54,272 bases of DNA from the NCBI GenBank assembly GCA_937992175.1, contig CALKLF010000003.1, forward strand, positions 1 to 54,272, read 5' to 3'. The notes under the pieces were generated by a model. It saw nothing but the letters and a program-made list of their open reading frames with translations. It was not told the origin of the DNA and made no database searches. Every line of letters begins with the position of its first letter. Position 1 is the stretch's first letter. The position numbers and the translations under genes were made by a program. The DNA comes from an uncultured Fimbriimonadales bacterium (GTDB taxonomy: Bacteria; Armatimonadota; Fimbriimonadia; Fimbriimonadales; GBS-DC). Shown here in pieces: positions 8,115 through 48,689 of the stretch.

Positions 8115-9500
8115 ATGCGATTTCAGACCATCATTGAACCGTTCAAAATCAAGGCGGTGGAGCCTATCCGCCTCACCACGCAGGCGGAGCGCGAGGCGAT
8201 TTTAGAACGCGCCCATTACAACCTGTTCCTCGTGCGTTCGGACGAGGTAATGATCGACCTGCTCACCGATTCGGGCACGGCGGCGATGAGCAGCGAGCAG
8301 TGGGCGGGCGTGATGCGCGGCGACGAATCCTACGCAGGCAGCCGCAGCTACTACTTTTTTGAGGAGACCGTGCGCGACATCTTTCGCTTCAAGCATGTTA
8401 TCCCCGTGCATCAGGGGCGCGCGGCGGAGCGGATTCTGTTCGCGCTGCTCTGCAAACCCGGCAGCGTGATTCCGAACAACACGCACTTCGACACGACTCG
8501 CGCGAACATCGAGTATCGAGGCGGGCGCGCCGTCGACCTGCCCTGCGCCGAACTGCGCGACACGACCGCACCGCATCCCTTCAAGGGCAATATGGATGTC
8601 GACACGCTGGAGCGACTCATCGAGGAGGTAGGCAGCAAGAATATCCCCCTCGTGATGCTGACCATCACGAACAACTCTGGCGGCGGGCAGCCCGTCTCGA
8701 TGGCGAACATCCGCGCCGTGAGCGCCGTGTGCCGAAAGTATGGCGTCCCCTTCTACATCGACGCTTGCCGCTTCGCCGAGAACGCCTACTTCATCAAGCT
8801 GCGCGAACCTGGCTACGCTGATAAAACCCCGCTGGAAATCGCCCGCGAGATGTTCTCCTACGCCGACGGCTGCACCATGTCCGCCAAAAAAGACGGACTG
8901 GCGAACATTGGCGGCTTCCTCTGCACAAACGACGACACCCTCGCGCAGCAGGAGAAGGAGCTGCTGATTCTCACGGAAGGCTTCCCGACCTACGGGGGGC
9001 TGGCAGGACGCGACTTAGAGGCGATTGCAATCGGACTGCGCGAGGCGCTGGATGAGCATTATCTGGAATACCGAATCGCCTCCACACGCTATTTAGGCGA
9101 ACATATCGCGCGCGAGGGCGTGCCGATTGTCCAGCCGCCGGGCGTACACGCCATCTACATCGACGCGGGCAAGATGCTCCCCCACATCCCGCCGTTGCAG
9201 TATCCGGGGCAATCGCTGGCAGTGGAACTCTATCGGCTGGGGGGCGTGCGCAGCTGCGAAATCGGCTCGGTGATGTTCGCAGGACACGACCCCGACACAG
9301 GCGAAGAGATTCCCGCGTTGCGCGAGCTGGTGCGCCTCGCCGTCCCCCGCCGCGTCTACACGCAGAGCCATGTCGACTATGTGGTGGAGGTGATTCTGGA
9401 AGCCTACCGCCGCCGCGAACAGCTGCAGGGCTACCGCATCATCTGGCAGACGCCGTTCCTGCGGCACTTCAGCTGCCATTTTGAGCCGCTAAAAAGATAG
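8115..9500 (+). CDS. tnaA: Tryptophanase (tryptophan indole-lyase)
   Basis: PLP enzyme splitting L-tryptophan into indole, pyruvate and ammonia. It aligns along its full length with the tryptophanase/tyrosine phenol-lyase family: DLLTDSGT-AM, MRGDESYAGSRSYY, THQGR-type HQGRAAE, SAKKDGLANIGGF (PLP lysine among K258/K259), EGFPTYGGL and RRVYTQSH. Three positions separate the two activities. Here they read as tryptophanase: Asp in HFDTT (Thr in the phenol-lyase), Ile rather than Arg in CEIGSV, and His in LRHFSCHF (Phe in the phenol-lyase). The 205-base upstream region is shared with the divergent STAND gene. A TACAAT hexamer near 8089 could be the -10. No tnaC-like leader with Trp was found. Confidence 0.93.
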   Translation: MRFQTIIEPFKIKAVEPIRLTTQAEREAILERAHYNLFLVRSDEVMIDLLTDSGTAAMSSEQWAGVMRGDESYAGSRSYYFFEETVRDIFRFKHVIPVHQGRAAERILFALLCKPGSVIPNNTHFDTTRANIEYRGGRAVDLPCAELRDTTAPHPFKGNMDVDTLERLIEEVGSKNIPLVMLTITNNSGGGQPVSMANIRAVSAVCRKYGVPFYIDACRFAENAYFIKLREPGYADKTPLEIAREMFSYADGCTMSAKKDGLANIGGFLCTNDDTLAQQEKELLILTEGFPTYGGLAGRDLEAIAIGLREALDEHYLEYRIASTRYLGEHIAREGVPIVQPPGVHAIYIDAGKMLPHIPPLQYPGQSLAVELYRLGGVRSCEIGSVMFAGHDPDTGEEIPALRELVRLAVPRRVYTQSHVDYVVEVILEAYRRREQLQGYRIIWQTPFLRHFSCHFEPLKR

Positions 9501-9534: not shown

Positions 9535-9612
9535 AGATTCTTCGCTCCGCTCGGAATGACAACAAGTTTTCGGCGACCACGCTTTGTCATTCCGAGCGGA
9601 GCGAGGAATCTC
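9535..9612. repeat. Family B inverted pair after tnaA
   Basis: The left arm at 9535-9560 has the core TTCGCTCCGCTCGGAATGAC. The right arm at 9586-9612 is its complement with core GTCATTCCGAGCGGAGCGAG. The arms are about 26 bp with a 25-base loop. It sits 35 bases after the tnaA stop and could fold into a strong hairpin, followed by CTCTTTTTG. It may double as a terminator. Confidence 0.85.
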
Positions 9613-23819: not shown

Positions 23820-25258
23820 TGGAAGGCATGCACCCCAACGCGCCGCTGGATTTCGACGCCGACACGATGCGTCAGATGGGCTACCGCGTGGTGGACGCGC
23901 TGGTCGACTACTGGCAGAGCCTGCACGAGCGTCCGCTGGGCAAACGCCCATCGCGTGAGGCGTTAGAGCCGCTTCTTAGCGAACCGACGCCGCAGCTATC
24001 ACAGCCGTTCGAGGCGGTGCTGGACGAGTTCCTGCAGAAGGTGCTGCCGAACATCGTCAAGGTAGACCATCCGCGCTACTTCGCGTTCGTGCCCGCGCCG
24101 AACGAGTATGTGGGCGTGCTGGCGGACTTCCTCTCGGCAGGAATGAACATCTTCGTGGGCACATGGATGGTGGGCGCGGGGGCGACGCAAGTGGAGCGCG
24201 TGGTCATTCGCTGGCTGTGCAACTGGTTCGGCATGCCAGAGAGCGCAGGTGGGCTGTTCGTGAGCGGCGGCTCGGTGGCGAACCTGGTGTGCCTTGCGGC
24301 GGCGCGGCAGCGGTATCCCGAAGCGCTCGCGCGCGGCAGGGTCTATTATTCCGACCAGACGCACTCCTGCGTGGCGCGGGCGTGGCGCATTCTCGGCTTG
24401 CGCGAGCAGCAGCTCTGTGTGCTGCCCTGCGACGAGAACTTTCAGATCCCTCTCGGCGCACTCACAGAGCAGATTCGGCGCGACCGCGAGGCGGGCTGGC
24501 TGCCGTTCTGCGTCGTTGCCAACGCGGGCACAACCAACACGGGCGCAGTAGACCCCCTGAACGCCTTAGCCGACCTGTGCACGGCGGAGGGGTTGTGGCT
24601 GCACGCCGACGGCGCATACGGCGCAGCCGCCGTCCTCACCGAGGAGGGCAGGCGGCGACTTGATGGCATCCACCGCCTCGATTCGCTCGCCGTAGACCCC
24701 CACAAGTGGCTCTATCAACCGATGATGGCGGGCTGCGCCATCGTGCGCGAGTTCGAGCAGCTGCGCGTGGCGTTCCGAATCCTGCCCCCCTACTTGCAGG
24801 ACAAGGAGCGTGGCGCGGTGGGCGTGGATTTATGCGATTATGGCGTCGAACTCTCACGCAACTTCCGCGCCCTCAAGTTCTGGATGTCGCTCAAGACGCA
24901 CGGCGTCGAAGCGTTTCGGCAGGCGATGGAGTGGAATCTGCACCTGACGCGCGTCGCGGAGCAGGCGATTCGCGAACTGCCTCACTGGCGCGTCGTCTCG
25001 CCCGCGACGATGGGAATTGTGGCGTTCCGCTATGAGCCGCCCGAACTCAACGCGGAGCAGGCAGACGCGCTCAACCGCGCGCTGGTGGACACGATGCTCC
25101 ACGACGGCTTCGCGCTGGTCAGCTCGACGGTCTTACGGGGGCGCGTCGCACTACGCATGTGTACGCTGAACCCCCGCGCGACCGAAGCCGATGTGCGCGA
25201 AACCGTGCGACGCCTGAACGAGTTCGCCCTGACGATGGCTACCCCCGCGGCGAGATGA
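23819..25258 (+). CDS. Aromatic-L-amino-acid-decarboxylase-like PLP enzyme (group II)
   Basis: 479 residues, the usual length. DHPRYFAFVPAPNEYVGVLADFL, GLFVSGGSVANLVCLAAAR, ANAGTTNTGAVDPL, LHADGAYGAAAVL and DPHKWLYQP (PLP lysine) mark a group II decarboxylase. The residue string around YLQD and the F-R-A-L-K-F-W-M-S-L motif are typical of the aromatic amino acid branch. Substrate could be tryptophan, tyrosine, phenylalanine or DOPA, and this cannot be settled by eye. ATG 23819 overlaps the ATPase stop by one base. The 3' end overlaps the convergent khpB gene by 20 bp. Confidence 0.88.
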   Translation: MEGMHPNAPLDFDADTMRQMGYRVVDALVDYWQSLHERPLGKRPSREALEPLLSEPTPQLSQPFEAVLDEFLQKVLPNIVKVDHPRYFAFVPAPNEYVGVLADFLSAGMNIFVGTWMVGAGATQVERVVIRWLCNWFGMPESAGGLFVSGGSVANLVCLAAARQRYPEALARGRVYYSDQTHSCVARAWRILGLREQQLCVLPCDENFQIPLGALTEQIRRDREAGWLPFCVVANAGTTNTGAVDPLNALADLCTAEGLWLHADGAYGAAAVLTEEGRRRLDGIHRLDSLAVDPHKWLYQPMMAGCAIVREFEQLRVAFRILPPYLQDKERGAVGVDLCDYGVELSRNFRALKFWMSLKTHGVEAFRQAMEWNLHLTRVAEQAIRELPHWRVVSPATMGIVAFRYEPPELNAEQADALNRALVDTMLHDGFALVSSTVLRGRVALRMCTLNPRATEADVRETVRRLNEFALTMATPAAR

Positions 25259-25859
25259 CCACATAGCGGTTCGGCTCCTCGCCCTCGCTGTAGGTCATCA
25301 CTTCGGGGTCGTCCTTCAACGCCTGATGCACAATCCGCCGCTCGTGAGGGGGCATCGGGGGCAGCACCGCTTCCTCCCCGCGCAGCTTGACCTCGTTCGC
25401 TATCGCAATCACCTGATTGCGCAGTCGCTCCGTGCGACGGCGTCGCCAGCCCGCGCCGTCCAGCACCACGCGCACATGGGGATCAATCACGCGCGGCACG
25501 ATATTGTTCAACAGGAACTGCAGCCGATCCAGCACCTCGCCGTTTTTGCCGACCAGAATGTTCGCATCGCGTCCGACCAGCTCCACCTCCACATAGCGTC
25601 CGTGAGAGTGGCGCAACGCTGCCTGCACTTGAAGGGGCAGGCGTTTGATGAAGTGGTCAATATAGTCCGCGACTTTCCGCGCGACCTGCGGGGTCACGAC
25701 ATAGGGTTGCTCCTCTTCGATGAGCGTTGCGCGCACGCGGGGGGGATCCTCCTCCAGCACTTCGAACTCCACATGGGCGTTGCGCCCGACTCCCAACATG
25801 CCTAACGCCCGGCTCTTCGCCTCCTCTATGGTATTGCCAGTGGCTTCAACCGATGTCAT
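25239..25859 (-). CDS. khpB: RNA-binding protein KhpB (Jag/EloR)
   Basis: 206 residues. Three domains in order: Jag-N (VEATGNTIEEAKSRALGMLG), a KH domain (VELVGRDANILVGKNGEVLDRL, with the GKNG loop) and R3H (PPHERRIVHQALKDDPEVMTY). KhpB binds RNA with KhpA and affects cell elongation in Gram-positive bacteria. Gene order after yidC is the conserved one. ATG 25859 overlaps the last bases of yidC. The frame stays open to 26090, but that part is antisense to nothing else than yidC itself and lacks family similarity. AGGAGG sits 11 bases upstream, inside yidC. Confidence 0.9.
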   Translation of the reverse strand: MTSVEATGNTIEEAKSRALGMLGVGRNAHVEFEVLEEDPPRVRATLIEEEQPYVVTPQVARKVADYIDHFIKRLPLQVQAALRHSHGRYVEVELVGRDANILVGKNGEVLDRLQFLLNNIVPRVIDPHVRVVLDGAGWRRRRTERLRNQVIAIANEVKLRGEEAVLPPMPPHERRIVHQALKDDPEVMTYSEGEEPNRYVVISPRG

Positions 25860-27058
25860 CGTCTCCACTTCCTCCTGCTTAATTTTCGCTTTGAGCGTTT
25901 CTTGGGCGGCTGGTAGCCCATCGGCTTGGGCTTCTCCACCACGCCGTTGCGCGGCGCATGCGACTCGGAATCGTCGATCGGGGTTAGCTCCGGCGCAGGC
26001 GTGCGCATATAAAGCTTGTAGTGTACCGTATAAAACACATTCGTCAACAGCCAGTAGAGAATGAACGCGGCAGGGAACCGAAACTGCCACGAGAACACCA
26101 GCAGCATCAGCGTCGTGAAAATCGCCATCGTTTTCTGCATCTGCGCCTGCGACGGATCGGTAATCGTCAGGCGGCTCGTGATATACATACTGGCGGCGTA
26201 GAGCAGCACCAGCGGCGCATCGAACTGCCCTAAGTGCGCCCCCACAATCCCAGGAAACCGCGCCGCCATGTCGGGGTTAATCCACAGGAAATGCCCTGCG
26301 CGGAACTGCACCTGATACACCAGAAACGCATTATAGACCAGGATCAGGAACGGGATGGGTAGCAACGCATATAGACACCCTCCCATCGGGTTCACGCCGT
26401 ACTTTTTGTAGAGCGCCATCTGCCGCTGCATCAGTTCCTGACCTGTATATTTCTGTTGCAGCTCCAGCAGTTTCGGCTGCAGCTGCATCATCTTGCGCAT
26501 ACTGGCGAACTGGCGGTTGACCAGAGGAACCTGTATCAGGCGGATGACCGCTGCGATGAAAATGACTCCGAGAATGAACCGCGCGTCGCCCGCGAAGCGG
26601 AACAGCCCCATGATCGCGTCGAGGGCGCGATAGCTCGGCAATTGCCCCATCTCCTCGTCGATTTTGCGCGACACCTGCTCCAGCAAGGGCAGTCCCTGCT
26701 CCTTGTAGACCTTCGTATTGGGGTACAACTCTTCCAGCTGGCGCAGGCGGTTGTACGCCTCACGGGGGTTTTGCTTATCTTCGTAAAAGATTTTGGCTTC
26801 GAGCAAGATGCCCAGCGCACCGTACTCCGCGCCGCGATAGCGGTTCGCCAGCTCCTGAGCGCGGCGCGAAGCTTCCACATAATCTTTCTCCGCACGCAGC
26901 TTTTCGATCTCGGCGATTATCTGGTCAGGGGGCTTGTCCGACACAGGCGGACGCGAAAAGTAGCTCCAGCCCATAATCATAATGAGCCAGATAATCATCG
27001 AGATTACCAGTGTCTGCGTAAACAGTTTACGCTGATCGATAGGGTCCTGTTGCGCCAT
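25856..27058 (-). CDS. yidC: Membrane protein insertase YidC/Oxa1 with TPR-like N-terminal region
   Basis: Inserts and folds inner-membrane proteins. A first transmembrane helix ([16 protein letters not shown]) is followed by about 100 residues of helical hairpins with TPR character ([42 protein letters not shown]) instead of the large periplasmic beta domain of proteobacteria. Then come the insertase core helices: [20 protein letters not shown] (the conserved Arg is present), [36 protein letters not shown], and two further helices ending [16 protein letters not shown]. The tail is a Lys/Arg-rich stretch, as in ribosome-binding YidCs. 400 residues. Confidence 0.93.
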
Positions 27059-27545
27059 GATAGTTGCCTCGCTTCAAATCTGATGTGGCATCGACATTCC
27101 TGTCCGTGCGCTCCTCGTTCCTGACAAGGGTACACAGATCTGCCTGCGTCGCACGGACAGGAATGTCCGTGCTACTTAGGTCAGGCACAGGGTCATACCC
27201 GCCCTCGGCAAAGGGGTGGCAGCGCAGAATCCGCCTCAACCCCAGCCATAGCCCCCGCAGCGCGCCGTAGCGTCGAATCGCCTCCAGCGTGTAGTGCGAG
27301 CAGGTCGGATAGTATCGACAGGTAGGCGGCGTGAGGCGCGAAAACCACTGATAGACACAGATTGCGCCGATAAGCGCACGGGCGGCGAGAGAGGGTTGAG
27401 CTTCCTCGCTGCGCTCGGAATGACAGAGGGGCTGAGGGCGAGCTTCCTCGCTGCGCTCGGAATGACAACTCTGACCTGCCTCAAAGTCCTTGTCATTCCG
27501 AGCGCAGCGAGGAAGCTCAATCGCGTTGTATACTCGTTGTCTCAT
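27027..27545 (-). CDS. yidD: Membrane protein insertion factor YidD with repeat-derived ends
   Basis: The YidD core is certain: [55 protein letters not shown]. The protein is 172 residues against about 70-90 usually. The first about 55 residues (including [13 protein letters not shown] and [12 protein letters not shown]) are translation of three family B repeats. The last about 35 (TDIPVRATQ...[10 protein letters not shown]) translate a family D repeat. The ATG at 27545 overlaps the rnpA TGA as ATGA, a classical coupling, and no ATG, GTG or TTG lies between the repeats and the core. So the extension is probably translated. The C-terminus overlaps the yidC start. Confidence 0.85.
27093..27167. 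repeat. Family D inverted repeat in the yidD 3' end
   Basis: GACATTCCTGTCCGTGCG (27093-27110) faces its complement CGCACGGACAGGAATGTC (27150-27167) across 39 bases. It is read in frame as the YidD C-terminal extension. Variants with other stem bases occur at 33020-33230 and 54162-54255. Confidence 0.75.
27398..27518. repeat. Family B repeats, three copies inside yidD
   Basis: Two direct copies, 27398-27424 and 27440-27466 (core CTTCCTCGCTGCGCTCGGAA), and one inverted copy, 27492-27518. They lie between the yidD start codon and the conserved YidD core, and translate as CHSERSEE twice and as part of [10 protein letters not shown] once. Confidence 0.85.
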
Positions 27546-27895
27546 GCTTCGCCCCCTGTTTGCATGCCCGCTTGCGTCAGGGCGCGCGTCATCTCGCGCT
27601 GAATCTGCTCAATCGGCGCGGTCGCTGCTGCAGAACGCGCCACGCACACTACATCGTAGCCTCTCGGCAACTGTTCCCACAGTCCACGCGCCGCCGCCCG
27701 CAGCCGCCGCTTCACGCGATTGCGCTGCACATGCGTCCCGAATCGCCGCCCGACCACGAATCCGAACCGTGTCGGCGCGTCGTCGCCTCGCGCATGCACA
27801 TACATCGTGAACGATTCCATACTGACCCGTCGCCCCTGCTGATAAACCCGTTCGAATTCGCGCTTTTTTCGCAGTCGCCCCGCGCGCGGCAGCAT
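27542..27895 (-). CDS. rnpA: Ribonuclease P protein component
   Basis: Protein subunit of RNase P, which matures tRNA 5' ends. 117 residues, typical length. [18 protein letters not shown] opens the protein, [23 protein letters not shown] is the conserved RNR motif, and [13 protein letters not shown] is the central strand. It starts one base after the rpmH stop (TGA-G-ATG) and its stop overlaps the yidD start. This is the universal rpmH-rnpA-yidD order. Confidence 0.95.
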
Positions 27896-27896
27896 C

Positions 27897-28034
27897 TCAG
27901 TCGACGGTCAGTCGCCAGCGCCCCTTCAGACGGCGACGCTTCAGCACGTTCCGCCCGTCCTTGGTGCGCATCCGACGCCGAAAACCGTGTACCTTATGCC
28001 GATGACGATTATTGGGTTGATAGGTTCGCTTCAT
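27897..28034 (-). CDS. rpmH: Ribosomal protein L34
   Basis: 45-residue basic protein read from the complement of 28034-27897. It begins [20 protein letters not shown] and continues [20 protein letters not shown], then RLTVD. This matches the L34 consensus (KRT-QPN-R-R--HGFR-RM-T--GR-VL--RR-KGR). GGAGG lies 9 bases upstream. It heads the rnpA-yidD-yidC-khpB operon. The usual neighbour dnaA is not next to it; a secreted metallopeptidase reads divergently instead. Confidence 0.96.
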
Positions 28035-28131
28035 ACCTGAACGCCTCCAACGCCCCTGATTGTACCCTATCGTGAGAGGAAATTACGCGCCCCCCGTCGA
28101 ATCAACACTACTTGGTGAAGGAGGTCATCTT

Positions 28132-30690
28132 ATGCTCAGGTCACGCTGGTTTCTGGGATTGTTCTTAGCGGCAGGCGTTCTTGTTTCAGCGGTGGCGCAG
28201 TCGCCCGACGCGCTGCAGACACAGGCCGTGTTGGCTCAGCAGATCCAACGCGAGTTCCCCGGCGTTTTAGTCTACACCGAAGGCGACCAGGTGCGCCGTG
28301 TTTGGGGCAAGCCGTTTGGCTATGGCAGTTCGGCAATCGATTCGGCGCAGGCGTTCGTGAACCGCTACGCCGAACTGTTCGCGCCCGGCTCGAGCCAGCT
28401 GGTACTCAACGGCGTGCAGGATGTGATGCGCGGCAAGTTCACGGCGGTCTACTTCCAGCAGCAGGTGGACGGGATCCCCGTGGACAAGGGCGAGCTGACC
28501 CTGTTAGTGCGCGAGGTCGAGGGGCATCCGCTGGTACTGGCGAGCAACGCCGTGCGTTATGTGAACCCTGTTTCCACCACGCCGAATCTCTCGGCTGACG
28601 AGGCGGTGCAGATTACCGAGAAACTCCGCCCTGATTTGCACGCCGACAGCAAGCCAGAACTCGTGATTTACCCACATGAGGAGCATACCTACCTCGCGTG
28701 GGCGTTTTCGGTAGATAAGCATTCACTGGAGAATCCCGAACGGTATCGCGTGTTCGTGGACGCGCACACGGGCGCACTGCTGGAGTGGCGCTCGGAAGTC
28801 TATTACGCCGACATCACGGGGCAGGTGCGCGGCTATGTCACTCCCGGACTGCGTCCCGACAGCACGGCGAACCCGCCTGTGCTGCGCGAAATCCCGAAAC
28901 TGCGCGTGAGTGTGGTCGGGGGCAACAGCATCTTCAGCGCGATTGATGGGCGATTCACGCTACCCCATAGCGGGGTCGGGAGCGCAACGGTACGTGCGGA
29001 GCCGATTGGTCCCGCCGTGCGTGTAAACGACCAGGCGGGCAACACGCTCGTGCTGGAGCAGACGGTGAACCCACCCGCGTCTGTGAACTTCCTGTTCAAC
29101 GCGACGCCCACCGAGTCCAACACGGCGCAACTGAACGGGCTGATTCACACCCAGCTCGTGTACGACTTTGTGAAATCCATCAACCCCAACTACCCCGGCG
29201 TGGACATCCAGATTCCATGTAATGTGAACATCAACAATACCTGCAACGCCTATTACAGCAACCGCACGATTAACTTCTATCGGGCGGGCGGCGGCTGTGT
29301 GAATACCTGTTATTCGACAGTGGTGTACCACGAATACGGGCACTTCATTATCGCGATGGGGCACCCGAACGCCAGCGGCGACTACCACGAGGGCATCGCC
29401 GATGTGACGGCGGCGTTTTTGACAGTAGATCCCTGCCTCGCGGTCGAGTTTCGTGGGGTGGGCACAGGCTGCCTGCGCAACAGCGTGAATGACCGCCTGT
29501 ATCCCTGTTCGGGTGGGGTGCATTTCTGCGGGCAGGTGATTAGCGGCGCGTTCTGGCAGACATGGCTGGAAATGCGCAATCGCTACGCGAGCAATCCGCA
29601 GTTCGCCCTCGATCGGGTGCGCGAGTGGTATCTGAACAGTATCCTGATACGCCCGACGGGCATCTCGCCGCAGATTACCATCGATGTGCTGACCCTGGAC
29701 GACAACGACGGCGACATCTACAACGGCACGCCGCACTATGTGCAGATTGCGACAGGCTTCGCGCGGCACAACCTCCCCGCGCCGCAGCTGGATTGGGTGC
29801 GCATCGAGCCCCTCGTGCTACCTGATGCGATTGTTGCGCCGCCGATCCCGAGCAGTTTTGCCCTGCCCCTGATGCGATTCGGCGTGCGCGTCAGCGACCT
29901 CTCGGGGCAGCGCGATATGAACGCCATGTTTCTGCACTATCGCGTGAACCGGGGCGCATGGCAGACCGTGCGCATGAATCGTGTGGGTAGCAACGGCGCG
30001 TTCACGGCAATCCCTGTGCCCCCGTGCGGCAGCAGCTTCGAGTATTACATTGAGGCGCGCGACGCGCAGGGGCGTCCCACCTTCTACCCGCGCGGTGGCG
30101 CGAACAGCCCGCTCAGCACGTTGGCGACGCTGCGCCTTGAGACCGTCTTCGAAGACACTTCCGAAACGAATCTGGGCTGGAGCGTGCAGAACGACCCGTC
30201 GCTTACGGCGGGTGCGTGGGTACGCGATGTTCCGCGCGGTACAAGCCAGAACGGGCGTCCTGCCAACCCTGGCAGCGACTCGCCTGACCCTGGCGCCCGC
30301 TGCTACTTCACTGGGCAGGGCAGCGTGGGCGGCTCAGTCGGCGAAGCGGATGTGGACGGCGGTCCCACTTACCTCATCTCGCCCGTGATTGACCTCGCCG
30401 GGACGGATGCGATTATCGAATACTACCGCTGGTTCTACAACGGTACGGTGCTGAACGATACCTTCTGGGTAGAGGTCTCCAATGACAACGGCGCAACCTG
30501 GACGCGCGTGGAGACCGTCGCGTTCACCGGCAGCGAGAACCAGTGGGTGCGCCGCAGCTTCCGCGTTGGCGACTATGTGACGCCCACCGCGCAGGTGCGT
30601 GTGCGATTCGGAACCAGCGACAACCCGAACGATTCCGTCGTGGAAGCGGGCGTGGATCACTTTGTGGTGCAGCGGATTGTGTGTCCGTGA
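28132..30690 (+). CDS. Secreted zinc metallopeptidase with FTP propeptide (M36/thermolysin-like)
   Basis: 852 residues from ATG 28132 (GGAGG 8 bases upstream). Signal peptide MLRSRWFLGLFLAAGVLVSAVAQ. An FTP/PepSY-type propeptide follows (AVYFQQQVDGIPVDKGELTL, and a PEL-type Y-x-x-H-x-Y-L-A-W-x-F segment ending RVFVDAHTGALL). The catalytic part has HEYGH at residues 400-404 and a third ligand candidate Glu420 in HEGIADVTAAF, with several Cys around it. The C-terminal part has beta-rich modules (about 600-850) including a DTSETNLGWSV-type jelly-roll or P-domain-like region. Predicted extracellular protease. Divergent from rpmH. Confidence 0.85.
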   Translation: MLRSRWFLGLFLAAGVLVSAVAQSPDALQTQAVLAQQIQREFPGVLVYTEGDQVRRVWGKPFGYGSSAIDSAQAFVNRYAELFAPGSSQLVLNGVQDVMRGKFTAVYFQQQVDGIPVDKGELTLLVREVEGHPLVLASNAVRYVNPVSTTPNLSADEAVQITEKLRPDLHADSKPELVIYPHEEHTYLAWAFSVDKHSLENPERYRVFVDAHTGALLEWRSEVYYADITGQVRGYVTPGLRPDSTANPPVLREIPKLRVSVVGGNSIFSAIDGRFTLPHSGVGSATVRAEPIGPAVRVNDQAGNTLVLEQTVNPPASVNFLFNATPTESNTAQLNGLIHTQLVYDFVKSINPNYPGVDIQIPCNVNINNTCNAYYSNRTINFYRAGGGCVNTCYSTVVYHEYGHFIIAMGHPNASGDYHEGIADVTAAFLTVDPCLAVEFRGVGTGCLRNSVNDRLYPCSGGVHFCGQVISGAFWQTWLEMRNRYASNPQFALDRVREWYLNSILIRPTGISPQITIDVLTLDDNDGDIYNGTPHYVQIATGFARHNLPAPQLDWVRIEPLVLPDAIVAPPIPSSFALPLMRFGVRVSDLSGQRDMNAMFLHYRVNRGAWQTVRMNRVGSNGAFTAIPVPPCGSSFEYYIEARDAQGRPTFYPRGGANSPLSTLATLRLETVFEDTSETNLGWSVQNDPSLTAGAWVRDVPRGTSQNGRPANPGSDSPDPGARCYFTGQGSVGGSVGEADVDGGPTYLISPVIDLAGTDAIIEYYRWFYNGTVLNDTFWVEVSNDNGATWTRVETVAFTGSENQWVRRSFRVGDYVTPTAQVRVRFGTSDNPNDSVVEAGVDHFVVQRIVCP

Positions 30691-30702
30691 AACAGGCGCA
30701 GG

Positions 30703-30782
30703 AGATTCCTCGCCTTCGGCTCGGAATACGGGTTCACTCTCTCGAAAACGACGCCGTCATTCCGAGCGGAGCGAGGAATCTC
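30703..30782. repeat. Family B inverted pair at the end of queG
   Basis: The left arm 30703-30729 is degenerate (core CCTCGCCTTCGGCTCGGAAT). The right arm 30756-30782 is intact (core CATTCCGAGCGGAGCGAGGA). On the minus strand the intact arm encodes the last residues and the TGA stop of queG. Confidence 0.75.
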
Positions 30783-31845
30783 CGCTGTTCGCCGTCGCGT
30801 TCCCGCTGGAGGCTCGCCCGACGGCTTGTTCTTTTGTCGCTTGCTTGATTGCCCACTCTGCTGCCTCGCGTAGCATGGGGTCTTCGTGGCGCAGGAACGG
30901 CTCGATGAGGGGGCGTAGTGCAGGATCGCGTTTATTGCCCGCTATAATCAGTGCGTTGCGTATCAGCCCGCGCCATTTTGCCCGCTTAATCGCGCTGCCG
31001 CGGAATCGCTCCGCGAAATCGGCTTCGCGCATTTGCAGGATCTCAGCGAGTTTCGGCAGGGAGCGGGGCTGCAGACGCGGTTCCCGCGTTGGCTGCGCCC
31101 GCATGGGCTGATGAACGCGCGGGCGGTTGAACGGGCACACCTCCTGACAGATATCGCACCCGAAGAGCCATTCGCCCATCGGCTCACGATGTTCCACAGG
31201 GATTGCCTCGCGCAGCTCGATGGTGAGATAACTGATACACTTGCGCGCGTCGAGCCGATACGGCGCAATCAGTGCGCCCGTCGGGCAAGCGTCCAGGCAC
31301 AGTCGACAGGTTCCACAGCCCCCCTGCGCGGGTGAGTCGTACTCCAGTTCCATGGTAAGCAGCAACACGCCGATAAAAAAATAGGAGCCACGCTGCGTGT
31401 TGATAAGGCAAGTGTTTTTTCCATACCAGCCCAAGCCCGCCAGCATCGCCAGATCGCGTTCCAGCACGGGCGCAGAATCGACGCAGATACGCCCCTGCGC
31501 TTCCGGCTCCAGCGCCTGAATCGCGCAGAGCAGCGTCTCCAGCTTTTCACGAATCACTGCGTGATAGTCGTCCCCCAGCGCGTAGCGGGCGATTCGATAG
31601 TCAGTTGGGGGCAGCTCGGCGGGCGCATAGTTCAAGCCGACCACGATTGCGCTACGGGCATTCGGCAGGATCGCTGCAGGATTGATACGCAAACCTGCAG
31701 TGCGTTCCAGGTAGTCCATCACGCCTGCATAGCCCTGCGCTAGCCAGAGCAGAAATGATTCGGCATGGGGCGGCGATTGCACGGGCGCAACCCCCACCAG
31801 GTCGAAGCCTAACGCGCGGGCGTATTGCTTGATCCACTTGGTCAC
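30757..31845 (-). CDS. queG: Epoxyqueuosine reductase QueG
   Basis: Last step of queuosine synthesis: cobalamin-dependent reduction of epoxyqueuosine in tRNA. Core motifs: DSAPVLERDLAMLAGLGWYGKNTCLI, then a first 4Fe-4S cluster set CGTCRLCLDACP, and a second CDICQEVCPFN. The C-terminal HEAT-like region (LIRNALIIAGNKRDPALRPLIEPF) is normal for QueG. The start is uncertain. GTG 31845 begins the conserved part, while a frame open to GTG 31908 would translate a family C repeat. The C-terminal SSLRSE and stop come from a family B repeat. It follows speE on the same strand. Confidence 0.9.
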   Translation of the reverse strand: MTKWIKQYARALGFDLVGVAPVQSPPHAESFLLWLAQGYAGVMDYLERTAGLRINPAAILPNARSAIVVGLNYAPAELPPTDYRIARYALGDDYHAVIREKLETLLCAIQALEPEAQGRICVDSAPVLERDLAMLAGLGWYGKNTCLINTQRGSYFFIGVLLLTMELEYDSPAQGGCGTCRLCLDACPTGALIAPYRLDARKCISYLTIELREAIPVEHREPMGEWLFGCDICQEVCPFNRPRVHQPMRAQPTREPRLQPRSLPKLAEILQMREADFAERFRGSAIKRAKWRGLIRNALIIAGNKRDPALRPLIEPFLRHEDPMLREAAEWAIKQATKEQAVGRASSGNATANSGDSSLRSE

Positions 31846-31853
31846 ATCGCGTG

Positions 31854-31917
31854 GCACGGGCGTCCCCGCCCGTGCAGCAGCTTGAAAACTTGTGCTTGAG
31901 CGAGACACTCAAGCGCC
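31854..31917. repeat. Family C repeat between speE and queG
   Basis: Modules GGCACGGGCGTCCCCGCCCGTGC and AACTTGTGCTTGAGCGAGACACTCAAG, in that order. The same modules appear in reverse complement twice at 35857-35990. Each module is itself palindromic. Confidence 0.75.
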
Positions 31918-31921
31918 AGAG

Positions 31922-32848
31922 CTATGCCTCCCACAAAAACGGTTGCTCGTCGGTCAGCACACGCGCCTTGCTAATCACCTCGCGCAAGTAGGGCGGAATG
32001 CCAAACATGCCGTAGTGCGTGCTGGGATCGTAATACCGCAAGCCCTGCACGCCGCGCTGCTCAATGCGCCGCGCAATCTCCTCGCGCGGAATCGCGAGCG
32101 GGTCGTGCCGCTTCGACGCCAGAATGAAACCCCACGGCAACATAAACGACGCCACGAAGCACCAGTACGGACGCACGATAGGGAATACCTCTTGCAGGGT
32201 GCGTGCAATGCAGCCATACAGATACGGGTAGAGCGGGTCGCCTGCGCCCGACTGCACGGTCAACACTCCATCATCGGTCAGCGCGTCGTAAATCATCTGG
32301 TAGAACTCACGCGTGAACAGGTATTGCGACGGTCCCGCCTCCAGTGGGTCGGTCAGGTCGGACACAATCACATCGAAGTGGTTGCGATACTGCGGGATGA
32401 ATTTCCGAGCGTCGTCGAAGATGACGGTCGAGCGTGGGTCCTGAAACGCGCCCTGATGCCATTCGGGGAGCCACTCCTCGCAGGTGCGCACGAGTTCCTC
32501 GTCGATGTCTACCATCACCGCCTCCTGCACCGTGTTGTGGCGCAGGGCTTCACGCAGGGTCGCTCCCTCGCCGCCGCCTGCCACCAGCACCCGCCGCGGG
32601 TGCGGATGGGTGAACATGCCTGGCTGCACCATCGGCTCATGGAACATGTACTCATCCAGCAACGCCGACTGGATTTTTTTATCTAAAAACAACGCCTTGC
32701 CATAGCCTTCCAGCTCCACGACCCACGCATCCTGGAACTTCGTGCGGGTCATGTGCATTACATGCTTGACGCGGTAGGTATACATCACCGCGTCGGTGTG
32801 AGTTTCTGAGAGTATCAGACCGCCGCATACATGGTGTGCCGCTGCCAT
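31922..32848 (-). CDS. speE: Spermidine synthase (polyamine aminopropyltransferase)
   Basis: Transfers aminopropyl groups from decarboxylated SAM to putrescine or a related amine. 308 residues. The N-terminal beta region (KFQDAWVVELEGYGKALFLD, QSALLDEYMFHEPMVQPG) precedes the Rossmann domain with VLVAGGGEGATLREALRH, VMVDIDEELV, VIFDDARKF and DVIVSDLTDP. The GGGEG and D-D-A motifs for substrate binding are intact. WGFILASKRHDP near the end is typical. GGAGG lies 8 bases before ATG 32848. Thermophile homologues can use agmatine or make branched polyamines, which cannot be judged here. Heads the speE-queG pair. Confidence 0.93.
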   Translation of the reverse strand: MAAAHHVCGGLILSETHTDAVMYTYRVKHVMHMTRTKFQDAWVVELEGYGKALFLDKKIQSALLDEYMFHEPMVQPGMFTHPHPRRVLVAGGGEGATLREALRHNTVQEAVMVDIDEELVRTCEEWLPEWHQGAFQDPRSTVIFDDARKFIPQYRNHFDVIVSDLTDPLEAGPSQYLFTREFYQMIYDALTDDGVLTVQSGAGDPLYPYLYGCIARTLQEVFPIVRPYWCFVASFMLPWGFILASKRHDPLAIPREEIARRIEQRGVQGLRYYDPSTHYGMFGIPPYLREVISKARVLTDEQPFLWEA

Positions 32849-33400
32849 TAGGTTCGCCTCCGTCTAAGTTACACGCGCGGTAAGTATACCCTCTGTTGCC
32901 CGATTCCGCGCATAAACGGACTGCTCTATGGCGTAAGCAGGAGTAGTGATTTGTCTTGAGTATAATTCCCTTGCTATGGCGTTTGGGCTAAGTCCCTCAA
33001 GTGTGAAAACATCTTGTTTTGGCGCGACGACATTCCTGTCGTCGCTTGCGGTGTGGCGCTTCAGGGAGAAGACGCTATCTGCGGTGTTGCGGATTCGGCG
33101 TGATGCCCACGATATAGCACAAACCGCACGAAGAGACAAACTTCAGAGTGCGACGACATTCCTGTCGTCGTGCTACTCCCGGATCCTTGCCTCTGGCGAC
33201 GACAGGAATGGCGACGACAAGAATGTCGCCGCACCCAGTGCGCTGCGCGCGTTTGGGGACGAACTAACCTGCGAGGTGAAAATCTACCGAAATAAGATTC
33301 CTCGCTTCGCTCGGAATGACAAGGTGTCGGCGCCAGAAAAACGCCTGTCATTCCGAGCGAAGCGAGGAATCTCTGGCTTTGGGTATGTCTAATTCGCAAA
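32849..33400. other. Gene-free repeat island
   Basis: No gene was recognised. It contains AAGTCCCTCAA at about 32991, then several palindromic GACGACATTCCTGTCGTC-type units (about 33022-33044, 33151-33172, 33197-33231), and at its right end a complete family B inverted pair. These units end only about 25 bases before the permease start. Confidence 0.7.
33295..33373. repeat. Family B inverted pair upstream of the metal permease
   Basis: Left arm 33295-33320 (core TTCCTCGCTTCGCTCGGAAT), right arm 33347-33373 its exact complement, 26-base spacer. This is the cleanest pair of the family in the window. Confidence 0.88.
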
Positions 33401-34213
33401 ATGCTTGTGGAATGGCTCGAGTTTAACTTCGTTCGCAACGCACTGCTGGCGATGGCGCTGCTGGCGGCGGTCTATCCGTTGCTGGGGGTGTTCGTGGTAG
33501 GGCAGCGTGTGGCGTATTTCAGCGACGCGGTAGCGCACTCGGCTTTTATTGGGGCGGCTGTTGCGGGGCTGCTGGGCTGGCAGCTGAGCGACGCGCTGCT
33601 GCTGACTGCGCCGCTGTTTGCGCTGCTGGTGGCGTGGTTTCAGGCGCGCACGCGCCTGCCCACCGACACGCTGCTGGTGGTCGCGATTACGGGGGTGTCG
33701 GCGCTGGGCATCGCGCTGATTAGCCTGACCGAGACGCCGCTGGCGCTGGGCGCGCTGCTGTTTGGCGATGTGCTGGCGATTGAGCGGAGCGACCTGTTTC
33801 GGCTGTTCGGGGTGGACTGTATCGCGCTGGCGATGCTGCTGGGATTGGCGCGCCCGCTGCTACGAATCGGGTTCCATCGGGAGTTGGCGCAGGCGCAGGG
33901 CGTACCCGTGCGCATGGTGGAGATGCTGTTTCTGGTGGGGCTGTCGCTGGCGGTGGCAGTAGGCGTGCGCACGGTGGGCATCTTGCCCATCAGCGCGCTG
34001 CTGGTGTTGCCCGCGGCGTCGGCGCGCGCCCTGTGTCAGAGTTTTCGCGCGATGCTGGGCGTGAGCGCGCTGCTGGGCTTCGTGAGCCTGACGGTCGGGT
34101 TCCTCGTTGCTTTGTGGCAGCCGATACCGCCCGGCGCGGCGGTGGCGCTGGGCGCCGCCGCGCTGTTTGTGGGAATCGCGTTGCTCAAGCCTATGGAAGG
34201 AGTCGCCGTCTGA
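33401..34213 (+). CDS. Metal (Zn/Mn) ABC transporter permease
   Basis: 270 residues, about eight hydrophobic helices. The ABC-3 family motifs GVFVVGQRVAYFSDAVAHSAFIG (the S-D-A-x-A-H-S motif near residue 45), DTLLVVAITGVSALGIALIS and VGVRTVGILPISALLVLPAASARALC are clear. It is the membrane channel of a zinc, manganese or iron uptake system. The ATPase and solute-binding genes are not adjacent. No strong ribosome site precedes ATG 33401, and the upstream sequence is repeat. Its TGA overlaps the ATG of the VanZ-like gene by one base. Confidence 0.88.
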   Translation: MLVEWLEFNFVRNALLAMALLAAVYPLLGVFVVGQRVAYFSDAVAHSAFIGAAVAGLLGWQLSDALLLTAPLFALLVAWFQARTRLPTDTLLVVAITGVSALGIALISLTETPLALGALLFGDVLAIERSDLFRLFGVDCIALAMLLGLARPLLRIGFHRELAQAQGVPVRMVEMLFLVGLSLAVAVGVRTVGILPISALLVLPAASARALCQSFRAMLGVSALLGFVSLTVGFLVALWQPIPPGAAVALGAAALFVGIALLKPMEGVAV

Positions 34214-34653
34214 TGCGCTGGCTGCCTGCCGTGCTGTGGGTTGCGATGCTGTTGCTGATTTTCTACTTCTCCTCGCAGGCGGGCAGCCCGGAGAACTCGG
34301 CAGGCTGGATCAAGGGGTTCCTGCGCTGGTTTGCGCCCGTGCTCGCCGACCGCCTTACCGAAGAGCAGCTGATTTTGTTGAACTATCTCTTCCGTAAGAC
34401 AGGGCACGGAACAGGCTATTTTCTGCTGACGCTGCTGGGCTACTGGGCGTTTCGGAGCAGTTTCGGGCTGGAGTACGCTCTTGCCCTGCGCTGGGCTATA
34501 ATGACCAGCCTGATCCGCGCCATCCTCGACGAGACACATCAGGCGTTTGTGCCCGGACGCACGGGGACGCCCGTCGATGTAATGATTGACGCGGTGGGAA
34601 TAGCGCTCGCAGCGTGGCTGATTCGCCGTCGCTCAAGTCGTCAGTCGCCGTAG
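34213..34653 (+). CDS. VanZ-like family membrane protein
   Basis: 146 residues with about four membrane helices. RWLPAVLWVAMLLLIFYFSS is helix 1. The RKTGHGTGYFLLTLLGYWAF motif (K-x-x-H-x-x-x-Y-x-x-L) and DETHQAFVPGRTGTPVDVMIDAVGIALA (D-E-x-H-Q-x-x-x-x-x-R-x-x-x-x-D-x-x-x-D-x-x-G) are the signatures of VanZ-like proteins, which are linked to teicoplanin resistance in enterococci but have no known general function. Start overlaps the permease stop (TGATG). The 3' end overlaps the convergent purC stop by about 21 bp. Confidence 0.85.
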   Translation: MRWLPAVLWVAMLLLIFYFSSQAGSPENSAGWIKGFLRWFAPVLADRLTEEQLILLNYLFRKTGHGTGYFLLTLLGYWAFRSSFGLEYALALRWAIMTSLIRAILDETHQAFVPGRTGTPVDVMIDAVGIALAAWLIRRRSSRQSP

Positions 34654-35553
34654 CGCCTCGCGATAGCGCGCCACCGTCTGCGCCACGATTTCTTCGGGCA
34701 GTTCAGGCGCGGGTGGCTGCTTATTCCAGCCGATCGATTCTAAATAGTCGCGCACGAACTGCTTGTCGAAGCTGGGCTGGGGCTTGCCCGGCTCGTAGAG
34801 CGCGGCATCCCAGAATCGCGAGGAGTCAGGCGTGAGCGCCTCGTCAATCAGTATGATTTGTCCGTCAGCGTCCCTGCCGAACTCGAACTTGGTGTCGGCG
34901 AGGAGAATCCCGCGTGTGCGGGCGTAGGCGTGCGCTTCTTTATAAAGGCGCAGCGTGTAATCGCGCAGCGTCTGAGCCGTTTCCGCTCCTACCAACGCGC
35001 ACGCCTGCCCGAAGCTGATGTTCTCATCGTGTCCTGTGTGTGCCTTAGTGGCGGGCGTGAATATCGGTTCGGGCAATTCTGCCGATTCAACAAGGCGCGG
35101 GGGCAGCGCGACACCGTACAGGTGGACGGGCGCGTCGGCGGTCTCGCCTCCTGCGGCGCGATACTCTTTCCACAGCGATCCCGCGATGTAGCCCCGCGCC
35201 ACGCACTCAATCGGAAACGGCTGGGCGCGCCTGACCAGCATGCTGCGTCCCTCCAGATGCTCGCGATAGGCGTCTGGCTCGGACACGCCCGCCCGCTGCA
35301 GCGCAGTACAAATGTCCGCCCACTCCGCACTGATAAGGTGGTGCGGCATCCAGTTCTCGAACTTGTGGAGCCAGAATACGCTGAGCTGCGTCAACACGCA
35401 TCCTTTGTCGGGTATCGGCGTGGGCAAGATCACATCGAACGCCGAGAGTCTGTCGGTAGCGACCATCAGCAGGCAGTCGCCAAGGTCGTAAGTGTCGCGC
35501 ACTTTGCCCCGCGCGTGCAGGGTCAGGGGCAGATTGGTCTCAAACAGTGTCAT
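34633..35553 (-). CDS. purC: Phosphoribosylaminoimidazole-succinocarboxamide synthase
   Basis: SAICAR synthetase of purine synthesis: ATP-dependent joining of aspartate to CAIR. 306 residues, the longer form. GKVRDTYDLGD, LMVATDRLSAFDV, IPDKGCVLTQLSVFW, PIECVARGYIAGSLWKEY, GHDENISFGQA, LADTKFEFGRDADGQIILIDEALTPDSSRFW and PSFDKQFVRDYLESIGW cover the family's ATP and substrate loops. AAGGA directly precedes ATG 35553, an unusually close site. It is downstream of rpmA by 26 bases and probably co-transcribed. Confidence 0.95.
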   Translation of the reverse strand: MTLFETNLPLTLHARGKVRDTYDLGDCLLMVATDRLSAFDVILPTPIPDKGCVLTQLSVFWLHKFENWMPHHLISAEWADICTALQRAGVSEPDAYREHLEGRSMLVRRAQPFPIECVARGYIAGSLWKEYRAAGGETADAPVHLYGVALPPRLVESAELPEPIFTPATKAHTGHDENISFGQACALVGAETAQTLRDYTLRLYKEAHAYARTRGILLADTKFEFGRDADGQIILIDEALTPDSSRFWDAALYEPGKPQPSFDKQFVRDYLESIGWNKQPPAPELPEEIVAQTVARYREALRRLTT

Positions 35554-38048: not shown

Positions 38049-38987
38049 GTGAAAACCCATAGCCTTACCGTTGCCACCTTCGAGAACGCCCTGCAAGAGG
38101 CGTTTCAACTGTGGATGGAGAGCATGCAAGCGCGAGCCTTCTCGCCGAAAACCCTCTATGGCTACAAGGTGAATGTAGGCGCGTTTATTCGGTTCCTGAA
38201 CGCGCTGGGGCTCACCGAGCTGGAACAGGTGCAACCCACCCATATTCGCAAGTGGCTTACCTACAGGCGCGAGAAGGGCGTGAGTAATGCCCAGCTGTGG
38301 AATGACTACCGTCAACCGAGAACCTTCTGGAACTGGTGCTTGAGAGAGGAACTCACAACCCATAACCCCTTCACGAAAGTGGAGAAGCCCCGCTTGGAAA
38401 CCGTTGTGAAACCCGCCCTCACGCCCGAACAGGTAGAGGCGTTGCTGAAAGCCTGTGAGGGTAAGGATTGGCTACGCTTGAGGGACAGAGCGTTATTGCT
38501 CACACTACTGGACACAGGGCTTCGCGCCAGCGAGGTACATAGCCTCAAGGCAACCGATGAGAAACGGGACACCCTCCTGATTCGTGGCAAAGGTGGAAAA
38601 CGGCGTGTCGTGTTCCTGTGCCCCGAAACCCGCCTTGCCTTGCGCAGGTACTTGAACGCCTGCCCACACTCACTCACGGACGATTCGCCTCTTTGGTGGG
38701 GCAGGAATGGCGCACTCACGCTGTGGGGGCTGCTCGAAGTCATAGAGAACATCGGCAAGCGTGCAGGCATAACCCCCTTAGGAGCGCATATATTCCGACG
38801 CACACACGCCGTGTGGAGCCTGCGTTCAGGCATAGACCTCGCCCACCTGCAGAAAATGCTCGGACACTCCAGCATGAGCGTATTGGTGAAGCATTACCTG
38901 CCCCTGCTGGAATCGGACTTGAAGGAAGCCCATCGGCAACATAGCCCCGTGAATACCCTGCTCAACAGCAGGAGAACCCGTAAGTAG
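38049..38987 (+). CDS. Tyrosine recombinase/integrase
   Basis: 312 residues starting at GTG 38049 with AGGAG upstream. An N-terminal SAM-like core-binding domain (FSPKTLYGYKVNVGAFIRFL) precedes the catalytic domain. The catalytic set is complete: Arg159 in TGLRASEV, Lys in GKGGKRR, H-I-F-R-R (His and Arg), H in MLGHSS and the nucleophile Tyr in VKHYLP. It resembles XerC/D-type phage and plasmid integrases. Its position 71 bases from the left tRNA-Arg predicts recombination at tRNA sites and makes it the likely integrase of this element. No excisionase gene was recognised. Confidence 0.93.
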   Translation: MKTHSLTVATFENALQEAFQLWMESMQARAFSPKTLYGYKVNVGAFIRFLNALGLTELEQVQPTHIRKWLTYRREKGVSNAQLWNDYRQPRTFWNWCLREELTTHNPFTKVEKPRLETVVKPALTPEQVEALLKACEGKDWLRLRDRALLLTLLDTGLRASEVHSLKATDEKRDTLLIRGKGGKRRVVFLCPETRLALRRYLNACPHSLTDDSPLWWGRNGALTLWGLLEVIENIGKRAGITPLGAHIFRRTHAVWSLRSGIDLAHLQKMLGHSSMSVLVKHYLPLLESDLKEAHRQHSPVNTLLNSRRTRK

Positions 38988-39958: not shown

Positions 39959-40153
39959 ATGAGCAGACTGGTGCGGATGCTTTATGACGAACCGCTGCTG
40001 CTGCGAGCGTTAGAAACTCGCGCCGCACGAAACTTTCGCAAGCCGAAACACGAACTCGTTGTGATTCTCCGATGGGTACTCGCGCCCGAACTGCGTGAAC
40101 TCGCTGCCCAACTACCTGACGAGCCTGCTGAGCGCAAGGAGGTGTCGCCGTGA
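39959..40153 (+). CDS. Small ribbon-helix-helix-like protein (64 aa)
   Basis: Short basic protein. MSRLVRMLYDEPLLLRALET-RAARNFRKPKHELVVILRWVLA reads like a ribbon-helix-helix unit: a strand, an Arg/Asn-rich turn (L-x-x-R-A-A-R-N-x-R-K), and helix V-I-L-R-x-x-L as in Arc/FitA-type proteins. On plasmids such proteins control copy number or act as antitoxins; no toxin is next to it. ATG 39959 is chosen over TTG 39953. Its TGA overlaps the GTG start of the replication gene (GTGA), so it is coupled to it. Confidence 0.6.
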   Translation: MSRLVRMLYDEPLLLRALETRAARNFRKPKHELVVILRWVLAPELRELAAQLPDEPAERKEVSP

Positions 40154-47531: not shown

Positions 47532-48689
47532 ATGGCGCGAAGATACGGTTGGGCACGGGGCAGGTATGAGATTCCTCGCTGCGCTCGGAATGACGGTGTA
47601 GCGGGCGCAGATTTGTCATTCCGAGCGCAGCGAGGAATCTGGGCATTAGTTGCCTGCGCACTGCTGAGTGCAAGCCTTGCGAAGGCGCAGGAGCTGGAGC
47701 CGTACCTCAAGACCCGCGCGGCGCATAAAATCAAAAGCGCGACGCCGATTGCCGCGCTGGAGCTTGCCGTCGGCAAGCGCGTGCTGGAAGTGGAAGGCGT
47801 CGTGGTCGGCTCGGTAGCCGTCGGCGAGGCGCAGTCGGTGCTGATGGAGATCGAGCCAGGGCGCAGCATCGTTGTGGCGATTGGCGCAGGGCACGGCTGG
47901 CTCACGCGCGGGCAGGTGCGCATTCGCGCGATTGTGGAGGTGCAGCGTGAAAGCGAGTTAGTCACCCCCACCTATCGCCTGATTAGCGCGACATTCGCCA
48001 GTATGGTCGCGAAGTGGGAAACGCAACAACGCGCCTTGCAGCAGGCAAAGGCGCAGGCGCAAGCCAGAACGCCGAAGCCCCCCGAAACGCGCCCCCCATC
48101 GCGCGGCGCAGAGCTGAACAGTCGCGCCAGCACAAACGCCGCGCGCGCCGCCCAGCGTCCCAACCCTGCGCCCGACTGGGACACCTTCCGCGCCACGCTC
48201 CACCTCTATCAGCCTGAATATGCGCGATTCATCCGCAGTTGCAACCCACGCCTCTCGCAGCAGCAAGCTGACCAGATAGCGTGGGCGATTCTGCGCTTCA
48301 GTGCGCACTACGGCGTCGACCCGCGTTTCATCGTGGCGATTGTGCTGGTCGAATCAGGCTTCAACCCCGACGCCACCTCGCGCAAAGGCGCGGCGGGACT
48401 GGGACAACTCATGCCCGGCACCGCACGCGGACTGGGCGTGGTCGACCCCTACGACCCTATCCAGAACCTGCATGGCACGGTGAAGCTTGTGCGCGGGCAC
48501 TTAGAAAAATACTGGGCACAGACGGGCGACCCGAACGGCTGGGACCATGTAATCCTCGCGCTGGCGGCGTACAACGCAGGTTCGGGCGCAGTGCGCAAAC
48601 ACGGCGGCGTGCCCCCTTACCGCGAAACCCAGAACTATGTGCGCAAAGTCATCCGAGTCTATAAGCAGCTCTGCGGAATCCGTGAATGA
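47532..48689 (+). CDS. Lytic murein transglycosylase (SLT domain), repeat-extended N-terminus
   Basis: 385 residues. The SLT domain (about 255-380) has IVLVESGFNPDATSRKGAAG (catalytic Glu in ESGF), LGQLMPGTARGLGVVDPYDP, IQNLHGTVKLVRGHLEKYW and ALAAYNAGSGAV. It cleaves peptidoglycan in the periplasm. A beta-rich region (about 55-150) and an Ala/Pro/Arg linker precede it. The N-terminus EIPRCARNDGVAGADLSFRA is the translation of a family B repeat pair (47568-47640). The signal peptide core (ALVACALLSASLAKA) follows that repeat. rimI overlaps its end. Confidence 0.85.
   Translation: MARRYGWARGRYEIPRCARNDGVAGADLSFRAQRGIWALVACALLSASLAKAQELEPYLKTRAAHKIKSATPIAALELAVGKRVLEVEGVVVGSVAVGEAQSVLMEIEPGRSIVVAIGAGHGWLTRGQVRIRAIVEVQRESELVTPTYRLISATFASMVAKWETQQRALQQAKAQAQARTPKPPETRPPSRGAELNSRASTNAARAAQRPNPAPDWDTFRATLHLYQPEYARFIRSCNPRLSQQQADQIAWAILRFSAHYGVDPRFIVAIVLVESGFNPDATSRKGAAGLGQLMPGTARGLGVVDPYDPIQNLHGTVKLVRGHLEKYWAQTGDPNGWDHVILALAAYNAGSGAVRKHGGVPPYRETQNYVRKVIRVYKQLCGIRE
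47568..47640. repeat. Family B inverted pair inside the transglycosylase gene
   Basis: Left arm 47568-47594 (core TTCCTCGCTGCGCTCGGAAT), right arm 47615-47640 its complement, 20-base spacer. Translated in frame in both arms, upstream of the signal peptide. Confidence 0.88.

Follow-up and report, generated by a model that had tools for sequence, protein, structure and literature searches.

What are the short inverted repeats that face each other at five places in a 54,272-nt stretch of DNA from an uncultured Fimbriimonadales bacterium (the window, meaning this whole stretch), and what moves them? A preliminary description had reported about eleven arms, usually facing each other across 20-26 bases, and both its count and all five places proved correct: the window contains ten type-1 arms when up to three mismatches are allowed, where 100 shuffles gave none, together with one type-2 arm, and the spacers between facing arms measure 25, 25, 25, 26 and 20 nt. 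The first pair, at 9537-9560 on the minus strand and 9586-9609 on the plus strand (both type 1, loop GCGGAGC), lies downstream of a beta-eliminating lyase gene (8115-9500). Three type-1 arms with loop GCGCAGC occupy 27398-27518: 27443-27466 (minus) faces 27492-27515 (plus), and an extra arm at 27401-27424 (minus) has the same direction as its neighbour. All three stand in frame soon after the start codon of a yidD reading frame (27027-27545, minus), ahead of its PF01809 domain (residues 56-120). The third pair is a heterodimer of the type-2 arm at 30705-30730 (minus, loop GCCGAAGGC) and a type-1 arm at 30756-30779 (plus, loop GCGGAGC); the latter supplies the TGA stop of a QueG-like frame (30757-31908, minus). 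A type-1 pair with loop GCGAAGC, at 33297-33320 (minus) and 33347-33370 (plus), is located upstream of an ABC-3 permease gene (33401-34213). The last one, at 47571-47594 (minus) and 47615-47638 (plus), both type 1 with loop GCGCAGC, is in frame within the signal-peptide-like N-terminus of a lytic transglycosylase (SLT) frame (47532-48689, plus). Elsewhere in the window, two near-identical tRNA genes (80-nt repeats, 99%) flank a tyrosine integrase (38049-38987) and a Toprim/AAA protein (40150-42735), and the segment 37899-44154 looks like a small integrated element; within the Toprim/AAA gene, long inverted arms are built from short GAGAATC-type tandem repeats and their complement (42076-42282).

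The arms belong to a family of imperfect hairpins paired head-to-head, here called Family B, with the unit consensus TGTC-ATTCC-GA-GC-GNA-GC-GA-GGAAT-CTC. Across 85 arms from the window and 20 further stretches, the type-1 consensus was GTCATTCCGAGCG-N-AGCGAGGAAT, with complementary A-T and T-A at stem positions 1 and 2. The tag was TGTC in 8/10 window type-1 arms and CGTC in 2/10, and CTC was conserved on the 3' side (0.96, 0.90, 0.83), with no consensus beyond it. The middle loop base was the sole free base (A in 37 arms, G in 33 and C in 15). Two variable bases had been described at this point; only one of them varies, as A, G or C on the tag strand, and its neighbour is constant, but the reported agreement between facing arms is real. 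A literature search for the arm letters returned no match.

Genome-wide, we counted 328 arms at up to two mismatches, with none in the reversed control. Detailed comparisons used a sample of 57 sequences (532,146 bases) from the same genome, picked mostly for arm content, which held 200 arms, 159 of type 1 and 41 of type 2. Among 291 genomes of the phylum, 34 had an arm at up to one mismatch, led by the genome studied here with 251 and followed by one with 36. Arms at up to two mismatches were present in 20/41 genomes of a set of relatives, including 274 in G013, from another genus of the family, and 70 in G001. Exact head-to-head homodimers occurred in three stretches of a contig collection, two of them from Fimbriimonadales, and 15 IMG/VR stretches held an exact arm. 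Two of these viral stretches carry a Y1-like gene and were considered as carriers of the mover; these genes do not lie between arms, and in L156 and L157 they stand, as judged by eye, between GCAGGCTTCAGCCTGTG-type palindromes.

Several observations identify the pair as the unit that is copied. In the sample, neighbouring arms within 60 nt were head-to-head in 81/95 cases, head-to-tail in 13/95 and tail-to-tail in 1/95. Among 80 head-to-head pairs, 45 combined two type-1 arms and 35 were mixed, and their spacers measured 7-8 or 20-28 nt, with two exceptions of 10 and 37 nt. The resulting unit, GAG-[arm]-spacer-[arm]-CTC, is mostly ~75-85 bp long. Spacer identity between different sites averaged 0.53 compared with 0.30 after shuffling, and 71/640 comparisons but 0/640 shuffled ones reached at least 70% identity; three spacers were identical, each at two places. 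The spacers are thus homologous across sites, indicating that pairs are copied whole, as had been proposed. The loop base agreed between facing arms in 24/28 pairs of a first sample (9.9 expected; maximum 19 in 10,000 shuffles) and in 41/45 type-1/type-1 pairs of the larger one. The further proposal that the two arms are corrected together is not needed: other differences between arms in the 28 pairs were private in 21 cases and shared in 5, and as most are private, common descent of the pairs accounts for the covariation without correction. One orthologous place differs in concert, with G in both loops and a 7-nt spacer in G002 versus A in both loops and 26 nt in the window (33297-33370).

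Orthologous genes of sister species lack the pairs and so provide filled and empty sites. At the rnpA-yidD junction, arms were present in the window, G007 and G002, and 5/8 recovered junctions were empty (G001, G005, G008, G010 and G011; G006 and G009 gave no usable junction and stand outside the eight). The yidD of G004 has an in-frame extra stretch with no clear arms, which we read as a remnant. The SLT gene carries a pair within its first codons in the window and in G007, and 9/10 aligned orthologues lack it. A third gene, copA, has 84 nt more in the genome studied here than in 8/10 orthologues, located in the linker that follows the HMA domain, and exceeds these eight by 3 nt in G008 and by 60 nt in G001. 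This copA also has a second, larger in-frame insert (L037:4494-4830), composed of CCCTCTCCCACCGCGTGGGAGAGGGGG-type repeats that are found again throughout the genome sample (144 BLAST hits). The fourth gene, trpF, carries an in-frame pair in the body of the enzyme; its orthologue in G004 has an arm-like decayed insert, and those of G003 and G006 have other extra stretches. All copies in yidD, the lytic transglycosylase gene, copA and trpF are in frame. By a rough gene call of the sample, only 5/46 pairs lie within genes, although 85% of the sequence is coding, and of these five the L039 pair, which stands ahead of an N_methyl motif, may be untranslated.

The pair thus spreads as a single unit, both to intergenic DNA and, on occasion, to genes, in which in-frame copies are retained. 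Gain and loss were observed between species, never within one; arm numbers were 328 in this genome versus 19 in G007, a genus member with two of the same insertions, and 0-70 in the other members of the genus. A search of the relatives for an empty collinear site for 30500-34300 found none, and the flanks of 79 pairs contained no target duplication beyond that of shuffles. Copy number, head-to-head pairing and filled and empty sites bear out the initial view of the arms as REP-like, paired, dispersed and mobile.

The fold of a single arm, ...(((((..((...))..))))), has five base pairs followed by two G.A mismatches and then two G.C pairs that close a 3-base loop. The loops were tallied without selection on the loop, from arms whose 5-bp outer stem is perfect and which have both GA steps. 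Among 138 such arms from the sample, 102 had GNA on 2 bp, 19 had GNA on 3 bp and 17 had another arrangement, so that GNA closed 2-3 G.C pairs in 121/138. In 12 stretches (L278-L289) of G013, whose genus is a sister within the same family, 51 arms had GNA in 35 cases, GNNA in 13 and another loop in 3, on stems ATTCT/AGAAT (31), ACCCT/AGGGT (19) and ATTCC/GGAAT (1). From the 15 IMG/VR stretches, 14/16 stem-perfect arms had GNA on 2 bp. Reversed controls gave 2, 0 and 0 arms for the sample, G013 and IMG/VR, respectively. The third GNNA letter was C or T in 13/13 arms of G013, and the loop is therefore not of the RNA GNRA type. Covariation within Family B is modest, as 84 distinct arms showed 13 compensated and no uncompensated double changes where independence predicts a sum of ~5. 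The calculated DNA folding energy of a single type-1 arm was no better than that of shuffles (z ~-0.3), from a program that may not reward GNA loops.

GNA and GNNA loops on at least two G.C pairs are described by Hirao and co-workers as extraordinarily stable DNA mini-hairpins (PMC4686876). From the pattern of letters, the Family B loop appears to be conserved as such a mini-hairpin. More tentatively, the core may be an extraordinarily stable mini-hairpin kept while the outer stems change, in which case selection would act for a DNA-specific, heat- and nuclease-resistant loop, read by an enzyme yet to be discovered that acts on single strands and disperses CGTC repeats with no need of a RAYT; we regard this extension as possible but doubtful. 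Literature searches combining REP with triloop, sheared or mini-hairpin structures, and those on REPs, REPINs or palindromic repeats of Armatimonadota, gave nothing on topic among the matches listed, and the main text of a 2025 REP survey (PMC12306157) contains neither the string Armatimonad nor GTCATT.

Among known systems, Family B best fits the CGTC-tagged REP superfamily, which as outlined by Di Nocera et al. (2013, PMC3733652) includes Rickettsia RPE-4 and RPE-6 and Neisseria dRS3 and has no associated transposase. Those repeats are described with a CGTC, TGTC or CCTC tag, a stem of 8-9 bp, a loop of 4-5 and a tail that is mostly CCA. Family B agrees with that account in its TGTC/CGTC tag, in a stem that opens with A-T pairs, in head-to-head pairing as homo- or heterodimers around conserved spacers, in a mostly intergenic location with some intragenic copies and, at the Y1 loci searched here, in the lack of a flanking transposase. 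Unlike them, it occurs in Armatimonadota, which is not among the five phyla listed there, and tandem G.A mismatches interrupt its stem. Its GNA or GNNA loop and its CTC tail also appear to set it apart; its stem reaches 9 positions only when the two G.A mismatches are counted, and its loop is 3 or 4 bases. Head-to-head predominance holds for our sample but not for the G013 stretches, where related repeats run tail-to-tail, often in tandem ~80-105 nt apart. Compared by insertion habit alone, Family B also resembles the Rickettsia palindromic elements (RPE), which insert in frame into protein-coding genes. As in the REPINs described by Bertels and Rainey (2011, PMC3116915), an inverted doublet is the replicative unit and can form one long hairpin, but Family B lacks the GTAG tag of REPINs with RAYTs, and we found no cognate RAYT. 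Like the E. coli TnpA-REP substrates (as described in PMC8266576), the arms are tagged imperfect hairpins with conserved stem mismatches and a flanking CT; unlike these, their tag is TGTC or CGTC rather than GTAG, and cleavage is here a proposal.

We therefore read Family B as a mobile, non-autonomous family of palindromes that belongs to the CGTC-tagged REPs and whose pair spreads as a unit through a predicted single-strand-acting enzyme, and put the probability of this reading at roughly 0.7. On single-stranded DNA, during replication or repair, each arm would fold into a DNA mini-hairpin of 5 bp, tandem G.A mismatches, 2-3 G.C pairs and a GNA or GNNA loop; alternatively, both arms may fold into one long hairpin. 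The enzyme would recognise the tag, the irregularity of the stem and the loop and, by analogy with TnpA-REP acting on GTAG REPs, might cut beside the flanking CT.

The preliminary description had looked to a RAYT-type transposase outside the window as a possible mover, whose gene should be flanked by the same arms. The genome contains two Y1 genes, on contigs C26 and C6. The first, P0001, is an intact RAYT with an HVH motif that scores 76.2 bits against NF047646, slightly below the 80-bit cut-off. Together with the resemblance of the arms to TnpA-REP substrates (5' tag, irregular stem, small loop, 3' CT), this would allow P0001 to move Family B in trans. However, P0001 is flanked on both sides by a different palindrome, of GCGACGGCATTCCTGCCGTCGC type, which occurs 22 times in the 532-kb sample, and Family B arms are absent from the 2,166-base P0001 locus. 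The C6 gene (L031:1420-2145) encodes a Y1 (IS200-like) domain fused to sigma-70 region 4, in which MPNQVH replaces the HUH motif. In an alignment of this fusion from 16 relatives (G001-G016) and the genome studied here, the first HUH histidine was Q in all, whereas L168 of G017, an ordinary IS200 type, retains it; the NQVH-like forms are conserved across genus and family (L172-L189). At what we take to be its position, the catalytic tyrosine also looks lost. Judged by these residues, the fusion is apparently a transposase, probably inactive, that has been domesticated as a DNA- or promoter-binding protein; it has no obvious counterpart among the literature matches listed and is kept across the genus irrespective of arm count.

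We also considered 31 Y1 loci of this genome and its relatives, mostly with 1.5 kb on either side, as sources of a cognate enzyme. Arms occurred at three (two at L031, four at L033 and one at L182), never on both sides of the Y1 gene, and no RAYT gene flanked by the same arms was found. Arm numbers do not track the number of Y1 genes: G013 (274 arms) and G001 (70 arms) show only the Y1-sigma fusion, and the genus members G006, G007, G008 and G010, which have a second Y1 match, carry 6, 19, 0 and 1 arms. Among the Y1 genes searched there was thus no cognate mover, the enzyme that moves Family B is probably not the genome's own RAYT, and action of P0001 in trans is unlikely.

Family B might instead travel as a passenger, forming the hairpin tip of ordinary MITEs that DDE transposases move, as three kinds of longer inverted element, alpha, beta and gamma, have pairs at their centre. 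Alpha is ~138 bp long with AACCCAAGTTGCTACC ends, and 16 complete copies were seen (L040:17207-17332, L103:653-790, L140:1502-1638 and others). In 6/16 copies it has 8-bp AT-rich flank duplications (7 or 8 of 8 letters; 0.68 expected), and its mean flank match was attained in 0/2000 shuffles, so that by sequence alpha behaves like a MITE. As candidates for an autonomous alpha element, we inspected 61 end matches in the genome; facing ends were ~110-140 bp apart by eye, and one set 2.6 kb apart on C112 was set aside, its left end having its own nearby decayed partner. No transposase for alpha was found. Against the passenger reading, 85/160 outer flanks fell outside every cluster, the yidD and SLT pairs show no alpha-, beta- or gamma-type ends in alignments, and the flanks of the 79 pairs equalled shuffles; the sharing of arms by three different frames fits later arrival in MITEs better. 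We consider the passenger reading improbable. That the pairs act in RNA, as terminators or mRNA stabilisers, and are retained for that function is more improbable still: their mostly intergenic position and the good RNA folding of three window pairs (z ~-11 to -12) would fit, but their tandem, convergent and divergent settings (22, 8 and 5) are near the share of intergenic bases, a terminator scan of 25000-35000 found none at arms, Rfam gave no match there, arm counts range from 0 to 328 within one genus, and the third GNNA letter is C or T.

CGTC repeats, the kind to which we assign Family B, have been without a known mover since the 2013 survey (as outlined in PMC3733652). This lineage, with its burst of copies, offers sites that are cleanly filled or empty and in-frame copies in four genes, and the simple loop rule provides a criterion for a candidate enzyme, which makes the question of the mover testable in vitro. 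If the mini-hairpin reading is true, a DNA-specific loop would be under natural selection and CGTC repeats would spread free of RAYTs.
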